From positions 1-64,000 of the forward strand of contig JAJVIK010000016.1 of the NCBI GenBank assembly GCA_022072055.1: DNA of 64,000 bases, written 5' to 3'. The first letter of the stretch is position 1. Each line of letters starts with the position of its first letter. Made by a program: the position numbers and the translations under genes. Positions 43,578 to 48,268 of the stretch are shown piece after piece. Under the pieces are notes generated by a model. That model did no database searches, was not told where the DNA came from, and was given only the letters and a program-made list of their open reading frames with translations. This DNA is from a bacterium. Lineage in GTDB: Bacteria > Hinthialibacterota > Hinthialibacteria > OLB16.

Positions 43578-43784
43578 ATGCCCTCGATCACAAGCATCAA
43601 AAAGAGAATTCGCCATTTGGAAGCGGAGTTGGCCTCGATCGCCACGGACCTTGAGGAGTTGGAGAAGAAGGAACGAAAGACCTTCGGGGACTTCCATGGC
43701 GCGATTCAGGGGTTCGCCGACTTGACAGAAGAAGAAATTGAGGAAGCGAAGTACAAGTTTCCAAAGTTCGAACCATCCCCATGA
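43578..43784 (+). CDS. Putative antitoxin paired with a PIN toxin
   Basis: Small coiled-coil protein, overlaps the start of the PIN CDS by 4 nt. Confidence 0.65.
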   Translation: MPSITSIKKRIRHLEAELASIATDLEELEKKERKTFGDFHGAIQGFADLTEEEIEEAKYKFPKFEPSP

Positions 43785-44161
43785 TATGCGTCACCGACAC
43801 TCATGCGCTGATTTGGCATCTTGGTGGAAGCTCCCGCTTGGGGACCCGGGCGAAGGCGGTCCTCGCCGAGGAACGAATCGTGGTGCCCTCAACTCGTCTG
43901 GCGGAGGCATCCTTTCTCCGCGAGCCACGCAGGGTTCAGATTGGCTTTGAGGAGATCGTCTCTTTTATACAGAGCACGCCCCAAGTCTCCGTCCATCCCT
44001 TGGACATCCCGGTCGCGGCCCAGCTTCCACCTCAGTTAAACATTCACGACGGGATCATCGTTGCCACCGCCTTGGTTCTCCGCGAGCGCGGGGAGGAAGT
44101 CGCGGTCATCACCAGGAATGGCGAGATCACTCGGAGTGGCCTTGTACCGGTGATTTGGTAG
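43781..44161 (+). CDS. PIN-domain (VapC-like) toxin
   Basis: MICVTDTHALIWHLGGSSRLGTRAKAVLAEERIVVPSTRLAEA...LNIHDGIIVATALVLRERGEEVAVITRNGEI. Confidence 0.9.
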   Translation: MICVTDTHALIWHLGGSSRLGTRAKAVLAEERIVVPSTRLAEASFLREPRRVQIGFEEIVSFIQSTPQVSVHPLDIPVAAQLPPQLNIHDGIIVATALVLRERGEEVAVITRNGEITRSGLVPVIW

Positions 44162-44183: not shown

Positions 44184-46541
44184 ATGTTCGTGGGAAGAAT
44201 CCTGCTTCCAGTCTGCCTCTTGATCACGGCCCTTCCCGCCGGACAAGCCCAACCGGCGGCGGACTCCCCCGCCAAACGACAGCTCGACTTTGCGCTGGGG
44301 CTTTTTCAGCGTGGGGAGTACGAGGGCGCCGCCGAGGAATTTGACCTGTATCTCTCAAGGCCGGAATGGACCGAGAAACGAGACCTTGCGGCGTTCTTCG
44401 CGGGGGAGTCCTTCCGACTCGCCGGGAAACCGGAGGAGTCCGCGAAAGCCTATCGCGCGCTGCTTGCCCGGGATGCCACCGGGGAGTATGTCCAGCGCGG
44501 GCGGTACCGTCTCGGAAAGATCCTCCTCGATCAAGGCGCGGCCGCCGAAGCGCTGACTCTCCTTGAACCACTCGCGGGCGAGGTGCTCCCGAAAGAGTTT
44601 CGGGAAGGGGTGCTCTATAGCCTCGGCGCGGCTTGCAGCGCGACCGGAGACTCCCGCAAGGCGATTGAGTGGTGGACCCGCTACCGCGAGGAGTTTCCCG
44701 CAAGCGAAAGCTCGCGCCGCGCGCTGCTCGGACTGGGGCTGGAGTCGATTCGTCTCCAGGATTGGGAGAAAGCCGCCGCTCATCTCGAGGAATGGCTCAA
44801 GGACCCCAAGGCATCCTCGGATTCCTCCTACCCCACGGTGCTCGCCAATCTCGCGGATGCCGAGGAGCGCTTGGGGAAAAAAACTTCCGCCGCCGAGCGA
44901 CACCTGGCCCTGGCTGATTTCACCGCGGAGGCGACCGTGAAGGACCGCGCGCTCCTCGCGGCGGGCAGGCTCTTTTTCGAGCAGGAAGACTGGACCCGCT
45001 TCGACCGTTTGTCGGCGAGGATGCGCAAAGACCTCGCCGCGCCCCCCAGTCTTTTGGCTTGGTTCATCCTGGAGGGCAATCGGTTCCATCGCGCGCGTGA
45101 ATGGAAGAAGGCGCTCGCGGCCTATTCCGAAGGTTTGCCGCTGGCCGAAGGTTCGGACCCGGTGATGGGCGATCCGATCCGAGTTCGGATCGGGTGGTGC
45201 GCGCGCGCTCTCAGGGATTGGGAGTTGGTTCGTACGCGCGTCGAAGAGGCGGGAATCCCCGGTGGCGCAAGTGATGAAAAAGCATTCCTCTTGGGCGAAG
45301 CCTACCGAGGATTGGGGAAGGATGCCGAGGCCGCCCGAGCCTATGCGAAGGTTCCCGAAGGCTCCCCGCTCAAGGAGCAGGCCCTCTTTGGAGAGTCCGA
45401 GTGCGCCTATCGCGCGGGCGAGTGGGAGCGCGCCTCGGCGCTGTTCGAGCGTCTGCTTGGAGGAGACCCGAAGGGAGCCGAACGAGTCGCGCTGCTACTT
45501 CGGGCTGGGGACAGCAAGCGTCAACTCTCAGAGTGGCTGGCGGGAGCGACCTGTTACGCCACGGCGACGGTGGAGACCGCCAGCCCGGAGGTGCGTGAAC
45601 GGGCGCTCTATCTCGAAGGCTGGTGTCGGGTGCGGGGAGAGGATTACCCAGGGGCGACGAAGGCGCTCCGAACATTCACCGAGGATTTCCCCAAGTCCGC
45701 CCAACGCGCGGAGGCGTTGTATCTCCTGGGTCAAGCAGCGGGGAAGCTCGGAGAGCGAAGCGCACAGATTTCAGCCTATGAAAGTCTCGCCAAGGATTAC
45801 GCAAAGACCGACTGGAACGCTGAAGGGCTGATCCAGCTCGCCGCGGCTTATTCCGCCGAGAGCAATCCCGAGGGGGTGCGTTCAAGCCTTCAGCGCTTTC
45901 AAGACCTTTTCCCTAAACGGAAATTGCACAGGGAATTCGCGCTGTGGCTGGCGGAGGCGCAGGTGCGGGGCGGGAGCCACGCGCTTGCGCTGAAGACCCT
46001 GGAGACCGTTCTTAAGGAAGACTTGCCCGAGGCGGAACGGGAAACCTGTCTCCATCTCCGAGCCTTCGCGCTGGAGCAGCTTGGAAAGGCCGAGGAGGCG
46101 CGCCGGGTGTACCGCGAGGCGCTTGAGAGATTCCCCAACGGGGCCAAGGCGCTGCACAACCATCTGGGGTTGGGACGAACCGCGTTCCGTCTGGGCGAGG
46201 TGGCGGAGGCTTCGAGCGAAGTGGTGGCGGGGCTGGAGCTGATCCGCAAAACCCTGGTCTCCGAGCCATCGGTGGAGGCGCAGTTCTACTTGCTGGAGGG
46301 GGATATCGAGTTTCGCGCGGGTCGATTTCCACTGGCCTATCGGGCGTATGCCCGAACCAGCATCCTGTACCATCATCCCGAGCACACCCCGCGCGCGCTG
46401 TTTCTGTCGGCGCTCTGTAAGGAACGGATGAACGAACCCGAGGCGGCGCTGGCGCTGCGCGCCGAGCTCAATCGAGACTACCCGGACTTCAACGAGGAGA
46501 GTGGACGAAACTTGCTCAAGGATTTGGAGACGATCCGGTGA
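44184..46541 (+). CDS. Secreted tetratricopeptide-repeat protein
   Basis: Signal peptide; repeated A-rich helical pairs, e.g. FALGLFQRGEYEGAAEEFDLYLSR, ALYLLGQAAGKLGERSAQISAYESLAKDY. Confidence 0.88.
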   Translation: MFVGRILLPVCLLITALPAGQAQPAADSPAKRQLDFALGLFQRGEYEGAAEEFDLYLSRPEWTEKRDLAAFFAGESFRLAGKPEESAKAYRALLARDATGEYVQRGRYRLGKILLDQGAAAEALTLLEPLAGEVLPKEFREGVLYSLGAACSATGDSRKAIEWWTRYREEFPASESSRRALLGLGLESIRLQDWEKAAAHLEEWLKDPKASSDSSYPTVLANLADAEERLGKKTSAAERHLALADFTAEATVKDRALLAAGRLFFEQEDWTRFDRLSARMRKDLAAPPSLLAWFILEGNRFHRAREWKKALAAYSEGLPLAEGSDPVMGDPIRVRIGWCARALRDWELVRTRVEEAGIPGGASDEKAFLLGEAYRGLGKDAEAARAYAKVPEGSPLKEQALFGESECAYRAGEWERASALFERLLGGDPKGAERVALLLRAGDSKRQLSEWLAGATCYATATVETASPEVRERALYLEGWCRVRGEDYPGATKALRTFTEDFPKSAQRAEALYLLGQAAGKLGERSAQISAYESLAKDYAKTDWNAEGLIQLAAAYSAESNPEGVRSSLQRFQDLFPKRKLHREFALWLAEAQVRGGSHALALKTLETVLKEDLPEAERETCLHLRAFALEQLGKAEEARRVYREALERFPNGAKALHNHLGLGRTAFRLGEVAEASSEVVAGLELIRKTLVSEPSVEAQFYLLEGDIEFRAGRFPLAYRAYARTSILYHHPEHTPRALFLSALCKERMNEPEAALALRAELNRDYPDFNEESGRNLLKDLETIR

Positions 46542-48268
46542 TCCGTCGTCCTCTGCCGCTCTTCGCGGCGTTCATCCTTTCGCTGTTGATTCACATGGTC
46601 CTTGCGGTGGTGATGGACCGAACACCCTGGGTCTCGGCCGGGATGCTGGAGGCGCGCGGTCGGGAGGCCCTGATGCGGGTCCGATTTGTTCCGGAAACCA
46701 CCGCGCTGATGAATCGCGAGGAGTGGGGCGGGGATCCGGCGGTGCGCGAGGAGGCGCTCCGTCGAACCCTGCAGCAGGAGGTGGATCAGGCCCCCCTGGT
46801 CCCGGAGATCCCCCAGAAGGAATGGTTCGCCCCGGAGCCGTTGGCGGTGGAGGCTCCGGAAGAGGATCTGGTCGCGCGGGCGGATGCGGAGCTTTCGAGC
46901 CTGCCCGGCGACCTCCAGGCCGAAAGCCTTTCGGCGGAAATCATCAAGGTCCCGGAGCCGAAGGTGGAAGCCCCGCTTCCGGACACCCGCATGTGGGCCC
47001 CGGAACCCGCGAGGGCGCTGCCCGAGAGCTCGGGAGCCGCCGCCCCCGTACCGGCGCCCGCGCCGCGCGACTCGGTGGCCTCGCTGGCGCCTCCACCTTT
47101 GCCGCTGCCCCCGGCGCCGGAGGTTTTTGAAAGGCCGATCGCGCCACCGCCGCTCGCGCCCGAACTCGAGCTGCCCAAGGAGATCCTGGCCCCTCCACCC
47201 GAGCCGAAACAGGGGGACCCCACGGCTCCGGCGGACACCCGCGAGGAGTTCCGAGAGTGGGATGACCTCCTGGATGTCCAGGTGGCGACCTATCGCCCCG
47301 AGAAGGGAGCGGGCTTCTTCCGGGTGAGTGTGACCCCCAACGAGAATTCGGTTCGCCTGCTCACCATGGCCAAGGATGTGCTTTTCGCGCTGGATGCCTC
47401 CGGGAGCATGGAGGGACCCACTTTCGAGGGGATCAAGGCGGGGGTAGCGGATTCCCTCAAGGCGATCCTTCGCCCCGGAGATCGGTTCAACATCGTGGCC
47501 TTCCGCGCCGATGTGGTGGCGCTCAACGAGGGGCTTTGGCCGTTCACCGAGGAGACCGAGAAACAGGCGCGCAAATTCGTTCTCGACCTTGAGCCTTCGG
47601 GGAAGACCGACATTTACCGCTCGCTCTCGTCCATCGCGCGGGCGCTGCCGCCTGGGGATCGCCCCTTCCTGATCGTGCTGTGTTCGGACGGGCGCGCCAC
47701 GGTCGGGTTGCAGGACAGCCGGGAAATCATCAACGCCATCTCAGTCGAGAACCGTCTCCGGGCGAGCATCCATGTCTTTGGGGCGGGCGTGGGGTTGAAC
47801 CGTTATCTGCTGCGTCTGCTGGCCTACCGCAACAAGGGGCTTTCGGCTTTCGATGAAGGAGACCGTCCCACGGCCCGCGCGCTCGGGGATTTTCTGAAGC
47901 GGGTGTCGGAACCGATCCTAGTGGATATCCGGGTGGACCTATCCGGGATGGTGGAGGAGCAGACCTTTCCGCTGGCGCTGCCGGATCTCTTCCGGGGCGG
48001 GAGTCTGGAGTTTTCGGGGCGCTATGACCTTGAGAAGGAGATCGCGATTCGCCTCACCGGGAATGTGCGCGGGAATCTCAAGGAGTTGGTTTATCGCGGG
48101 CCGCTTCCGGAGCCGAAGGAGTCGAACGCGGACATCGCCCAGGCATGGGCCTCGGCCAAGGCCTTCAATCTGGTTTCGGACATGCTGCAACTCGGGGAGA
48201 GCGAGGAGCGCCGGCGCGAGATTCGGGAGCTGGCCAAGCGCTATCGGCTGGATATCCCGGCGAATTGA
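46538..48268 (+). CDS. VWA-domain protein with TonB-like N-terminal anchor and Pro-rich linker
   Basis: N-term MIRRPLPLFAAFILSLLIHMVLAVVM (S-x3-H in the TM helix), Pro-rich spacer, VWA MIDAS DVLFALDASGSMEG...GKTDIYRSL...VLCSDGRAT. Overlaps the TPR gene by ATGA. Confidence 0.88.
   Translation: MIRRPLPLFAAFILSLLIHMVLAVVMDRTPWVSAGMLEARGREALMRVRFVPETTALMNREEWGGDPAVREEALRRTLQQEVDQAPLVPEIPQKEWFAPEPLAVEAPEEDLVARADAELSSLPGDLQAESLSAEIIKVPEPKVEAPLPDTRMWAPEPARALPESSGAAAPVPAPAPRDSVASLAPPPLPLPPAPEVFERPIAPPPLAPELELPKEILAPPPEPKQGDPTAPADTREEFREWDDLLDVQVATYRPEKGAGFFRVSVTPNENSVRLLTMAKDVLFALDASGSMEGPTFEGIKAGVADSLKAILRPGDRFNIVAFRADVVALNEGLWPFTEETEKQARKFVLDLEPSGKTDIYRSLSSIARALPPGDRPFLIVLCSDGRATVGLQDSREIINAISVENRLRASIHVFGAGVGLNRYLLRLLAYRNKGLSAFDEGDRPTARALGDFLKRVSEPILVDIRVDLSGMVEEQTFPLALPDLFRGGSLEFSGRYDLEKEIAIRLTGNVRGNLKELVYRGPLPEPKESNADIAQAWASAKAFNLVSDMLQLGESEERRREIRELAKRYRLDIPAN

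Follow-up and report, generated by a model that had tools for sequence, protein, structure and literature searches.

In Escherichia coli, Ser16 and His20 of TonB contact Ser34 and Trp38 of ExbB, as seen in a cryo-EM structure (PMC12215075). In June 2025, vWA force transducers bearing an SHLS motif were described next to TPR and tolQR-like genes (Mol Biol Evol msaf138; PMC12204202). The main text of that paper covers members from Proteobacteria, Planctomycetes, Verrucomicrobia, Bacteroidetes and Rhodothermaota, with tolR-like genes in pairs, gives their function as unknown and predicts the same motor docking for them by AF3 modelling.

Here, we analyse a TPR–VWA gene pair in the window, that is, the whole stretch of 64,000 nucleotides that was studied. 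The pair had been presented in an earlier note as a candidate new envelope system, but the same kind of system is the one published in June 2025 (PMC12204202): on the features that can be compared with the main text of that paper, the pair belongs to this kind by sequence, its putative motor binding and dependence on the proton-motive force (PMF) resting on covariation. As in the first family described there (the Tichowtungia type), we find an SHLS-type TM helix with a conserved His, a disordered Pro-rich linker and a C-terminal vWA, alongside a TPR gene and tolQ/tolR-like genes. The window protein combines a motor-binding Ser/His TM helix, a linker of at least ~100 residues and a vWA without a TonB C-terminal domain, and of the SHLS motif it lacks the L27/S31 portion. 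A TPR gene adjoins it in the window, and ExbB/ExbD genes adjoin the pair in 9/14 loci of its class and are unlinked in the window genome. We consider it about 80% probable that the VWA protein is a PMF-driven, TonB/TolA-like force transducer with an ExbB5–ExbD2 motor, a VWA hand and a TPR adaptor.

Table 1 Features of the TPR–VWA gene pair, in window positions
Feature	Position	Strand	Basis and details
TPR gene, 785 aa product	44184..46541	+	TPR Pfam matches and AlphaFold2 model
Gene overlap, 4 bp GTGA (stop TGA / start GTG)	46538..46541	+	Direct reading
Candidate TonB-like vWA force transducer, 576 aa, GTG start	46538..48268	+	Sequence and predicted structure
TM helix, residues 6-28	46553..46621	+	Confident prediction; S15 46580-46582, H19 46592-46594
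Pro-rich periplasmic linker, residues 29-238	46622..47251	+	Predicted structure
VWA domain, residues 280-438	47375..47851	+	Pfam; MIDAS D286/S288/S290, T357, D384
ITIH-type hybrid domain (beta-sandwich + helices), residues about 439-574	47852..48259	+	PDB profile matches, AlphaFold2, Foldseek

The TonB-like S-x3-H that had been read in the TM helix of the VWA protein is indeed there, with both S15 and H19 inside the predicted helix. Among the selected ORFs of the fetched loci, 82 have an N-terminal TM-like stretch and 11 of these carry S-x3-H within it: ten are members of this family (the window protein and nine orthologs) and one is the TonB_C/TolA protein encoded at the genome's Tol locus; the motif in the VWA protein is thus not due to chance. 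The long Pro-rich spacer is present as well, its ~210 residues containing a single predicted helix (67-83) and being disordered at 84-238 in the predicted structure (pLDDT < 50 at residues 29-66 and 84-238). The folded C-terminal part is predicted to begin at residue 241, and the TM-to-MIDAS spacing is 253-293 aa in those relatives where it is measurable.

The protein had also been said to end in a VWA domain with intact MIDAS motifs instead of a TonB C-terminal domain. The MIDAS is intact, with the first motif reading D286-x-S288-x-S290, and its residues are identical across 29/29 family members, and a domain search of the window protein and 11 orthologs (12 proteins) found neither TonB_C nor VIT; the VWA is, however, not the end of the protein, as ~135 residues of a hybrid domain lie beyond it. 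When a profile of the family was compared with PDB, matches to structures of inter-alpha-trypsin inhibitor heavy chains (ITIH; 9c4f and 6fpy; best E 9.8e-41) spanned the VWA together with the next domain, and the top Foldseek match of the AlphaFold2 model was ITIH1 (6fpy, E 1.5e-22). On account of these profile and model matches, the tip of the VWA protein is best described as a predicted ITIH-type VWA-hybrid module without a VIT domain. Membership of the VIT-VWA/sortase-target family TIGR03788 was rejected, as the protein has no VIT domain and scores 108 bits against a cut-off of 551.65.

The partner gene encodes, as had been proposed, what is predicted to be a secreted multi-TPR protein: after a signal-peptide-like N-terminus (about residues 1-22), AlphaFold2 models the all-helical remainder as one continuous TPR superhelix of 41 helices, or about 20 repeats (mean pLDDT 88.6). 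VWA and TPR are the only Pfam matches in the gene pair; in profile searches, YbgF-like stretches of the TPR protein exceed the TIGR02795 cut-off and a match to BatC_Lepto falls below threshold. The two genes had been described as coupled through ATGA, which needs correcting to GTGA: the TPR gene terminates with TGA (46539-46541), and the VWA start codon is the GTG at 46538. Separately, a small ORF and a PIN-domain gene (window 43578-44161, + strand; 24.6 bits for the PIN domain against a cut-off of 23.6) end just 5' of the TPR gene, and their ATGA overlap resembles that of a VapBC-type toxin–antitoxin pair. In one relative, G011, the operon carries a PIN-domain gene with a clear match (56.7 bits; L049 10734-11162, - strand) between ExbD and TPR.

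Conservation was assessed in a class set of 14 genomes, the window genome (G000) and 13 relatives. All 13 relatives have the TPR–VWA pair, although in G002 and G012 the contig covers just part of the TPR gene. The VWA gene of G001 (L039 8968-10726) is frameshifted in the linker region, through either an assembly error or a real break. The position of TonB His20 is His in 14/14 genomes and the Ser position is Ser in 13/14 (Ala in G004), which leaves the transducer idea of the earlier note standing. In nine genomes (G003, G004, G005, G006, G008, G009, G010, G011 and G013), the pair is preceded by ExbB and ExbD genes, giving the order ExbB-ExbD-TPR-VWA, with the PIN-domain gene interposed in G011. 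An apparent TPR–VWA fusion in G005 (L043, a 1564-aa ORF) was discarded, because the reading frames of ExbD and of the TPR 3' end differ from that of this ORF.

In a tree, the 30 ExbD/TolR rows of the class form three clades: TolR-like proteins adjoining TonB_C, ExbDs adjoining TonB_C, and a third (support 86/80) that contains, besides every operon ExbD, the unlinked copies from G000, G001, G002 and G007 as well as the ExbD of G012, where the contigs break. At least one third-clade ExbD is found in each of the 14 genomes, with a second, long-branched row in G005; together with the upstream genes, this means that the lack of an ExbB/ExbD-type motor, which the earlier note gave as refuting, is not seen in the class. 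The Thr residues critical to the motor (TM2, TM3) and the Asp line up with those of TolQ/ExbB/ExbD proteins whose structures are solved. A comparison with Zorya (ZorA/ZorB) gave only an 18.6-bit ZorA match over 72 ExbB residues, not the whole protein, and a defence context was likewise dismissed, with no defence neighbours recognised and no real PADLOC match.

In the window genome, the third-clade ExbB–ExbD pair lies at G000:C2:140877-142153, unlinked to TPR–VWA and with no TonB_C nearby, and the sole TonB_C protein sits in a Tol-like locus on C12. The distance between motor and pair in the window's family (f1) would also fit a lineage in which TPR–VWA works independently of a motor and the third-clade ExbBD drives another transducer; we regard this as improbable, as f1 retains S15/H19 as well as the Ser34 equivalent of ExbB and, because the only TonB_C protein belongs to the Tol locus, the VWA protein is the obvious partner left for the C2 motor. 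Elsewhere in the class set, a 422-aa open frame at G000:C8:100207-100773 has two weak ExbD-like stretches and no obvious motor partner, and G001 and G002 have single weak ExbD-like stretches in frames of similar length. In five genomes the VWA gene is immediately followed by a prepilin-like gene, and in the window genome such a gene immediately precedes the unlinked ExbB (L041 10158-10847, L044 8593-9282, L045 10624-11325, L047 1128-1802, L049 5497-6234; L052 12211-12885), and both of those tested contain an N_methyl motif. As the genome has 56 matches to the FTLIEL-type motif, this link is possibly chance or inherited synteny.

A genome scan recovered the family outside the class, with its four genes in both Candidatus Hydrogenedentota and Verrucomicrobia-like genomes. 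Within the phylum of G290 (taken as Hydrogenedentota), the protein is encoded in 57/68 genomes and in 37/38 of those of good quality. The fetched Hydrogenedentota-like loci include TPR in 53/56 and all four genes in 42/56, many of the others stopping at contig edges. The system is thus near-universal in two bacterial lineages, the window's class and the Hydrogenedentota-like phylum. The TonB-receptor plug domain is absent from 7/14 class genomes, the window's included, and because these still keep the TPR–VWA system, it is independent of TonB-type import.

As for function, the near-complete retention of the system in both lineages, which extends to genomes that lack TonB-dependent receptors, makes core envelope maintenance or outer-membrane assembly a more likely job than importing nutrients or serving a particular niche. 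The same motor-driven transducer could instead serve surface adhesion or gliding, its VWA acting as an adhesin-like hand by analogy with CglB of Myxococcus; VWA–MIDAS domains bind ligands, and the main text of PMC12204202 raises a gliding role for vWA transducers. We find this unlikely, though worth keeping in view: such near-universal retention points to a core role in the envelope, the VWA stays periplasmic on its inner-membrane tether unless it crosses the outer membrane, and neither gliding-type genes nor an Agl–Glt-like context were recognised among the recurrent neighbours.

The residue that TonB uses to contact ExbB is not fixed across the wider family. Of the 63 members whose TM helix could be read, 39 carry His at the His position, 23 Tyr and one Gln; the Tyr variants are confined to the Hydrogenedentota set. 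Placing the Ser34 equivalent of the family's ExbB via the genome's own TolQ, we found it to be Ser in 24/29 His-type operons (Gly in four and Leu in one, with one more row gapped) and Gly or Ala in 20/20 Tyr-type operons (Ser in none). When the 211 ExbB columns are ranked by how much normalised mutual information they share with His/Tyr, this one comes first, both in the whole set and in Hydrogenedentota alone, and within Hydrogenedentota it outscores all columns of ExbD and TPR. Given that the phylogeny is common to all columns, such covariation in sequence is hard to explain without contact; independent switches are few, and testing the His/Ser covariation with phylogenetic pairs yields at most 3 supported pairs, too few to reach significance. 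The ExbB Trp38 equivalent is not conserved in the family's motor clade.

As His–Gly intermediates exist, the sequences suggest that ExbB changed from Ser to Gly first and that this then permitted Tyr. We lean slightly towards an interface that has been re-keyed, with Tyr standing in for the His of TonB and TolA in a large part of Hydrogenedentota, and only where its ExbB contact is Gly or Ala in place of Ser; docking would then be a changeable, two-sided lock, and His would be chemically dispensable for PMF coupling. Two near-sister genomes differ at this position, with Gln in L286 (G398) and His in L292 (G399), both with ExbB Gly, possibly through a recent switch or a reversal on a Tyr background.

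The covariation also bears on whether a motor is involved at all. An ordinary inner-membrane-anchored VWA protein (YfbK-, VIT-VWA- or Bat-like) could partner the TPR protein in chaperoning or assembly that depends on a metal, S-x3-H being incidental. Bat operons contain VWA plus TPR pairs, and the C-terminal half of the window protein is homologous to VIT-VWA/ITIH proteins, even if the BatC_Lepto match is sub-threshold here; there is nevertheless little to recommend this explanation when S and H are so well conserved, all 11 S-x3-H ORFs among the 82 counted are those of transducers, motor operons are linked to the TPR–VWA pair and the top covariation column falls at the TonB contact site.

TonB-style docking of the VWA protein is thus supported by sequence covariation. 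In the force-transducer mechanism that we propose, the TM helix would dock via S15/H19 onto TM1 of a dedicated ExbB5–ExbD2 motor, which in the window genome would be the unlinked pair on C2; the Pro-rich linker would span the periplasm, and the distal VWA-hybrid module would grip a partner, its putative cargo, through the MIDAS metal, so that motor activity pulls or remodels it. The periplasmic TPR protein is the likeliest candidate for an adaptor or scaffold of the VWA hand and may contact it directly, in a role like that of CpoB/YbgF in Tol-Pal. The PMF-driven VWA hand with a TPR scaffold envisaged earlier thus gains support from S/H conservation, ExbB/ExbD linkage and the Ser34 covariation, from which we infer force transduction.

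Evolutionary data that are independent of structure prediction therefore support the proposal of ExbBD-type motors driving tips other than those of TonB and TolA, in a system that is near-universal in two uncultured lineages, some members of which have no TonB-dependent receptor. With the natural His-to-Tyr and Ser-to-Gly pairs, matched and mismatched swaps could test what the TonB histidine does.

Compared with TonB–ExbB–ExbD and TolA–TolQ–TolR, the family shares the N-terminal S-x3-H TM helix, the Pro-rich spacer, an ExbB/ExbD-type motor and the Ser contact site in ExbB TM1, whereas the VWA-hybrid replaces the TonB_C/TolA C-terminal domain, absent in the 12 orthologs, and, unlike TonB, the family occurs also in genomes without TonB receptors. 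With ITIH and VIT-VWA (TIGR03788) proteins it has the VWA plus hybrid domain in common, by profile to ITIH4 (E 9.8e-41) and by fold to ITIH1. CpoB/YbgF of Tol-Pal is likewise a secreted protein with TPRs and a link to a TolQR-type motor, but the window protein has its ~20 TPRs over 785 aa where CpoB/YbgF has a short TPR tail. The closest likeness is to the vWA transducers of PMC12204202, and the Verrucomicrobia-like members found here have TPR, ExbB, ExbD and VWA in common with the window family; the likeness to the Tichowtungia protein lies in the features described for it. Relative to the main text of that paper, in which Hydrogenedentota and Omnitrophota go unmentioned, our family differs in having one ExbD per operon, Tyr variants and, in the window's family, an unlinked motor, and the present analysis adds two further lineages, near-universality within them, a predicted ITIH-type tip, a dedicated ExbD clade that includes unlinked motors, and the covariation of His/Tyr with Ser/Gly.
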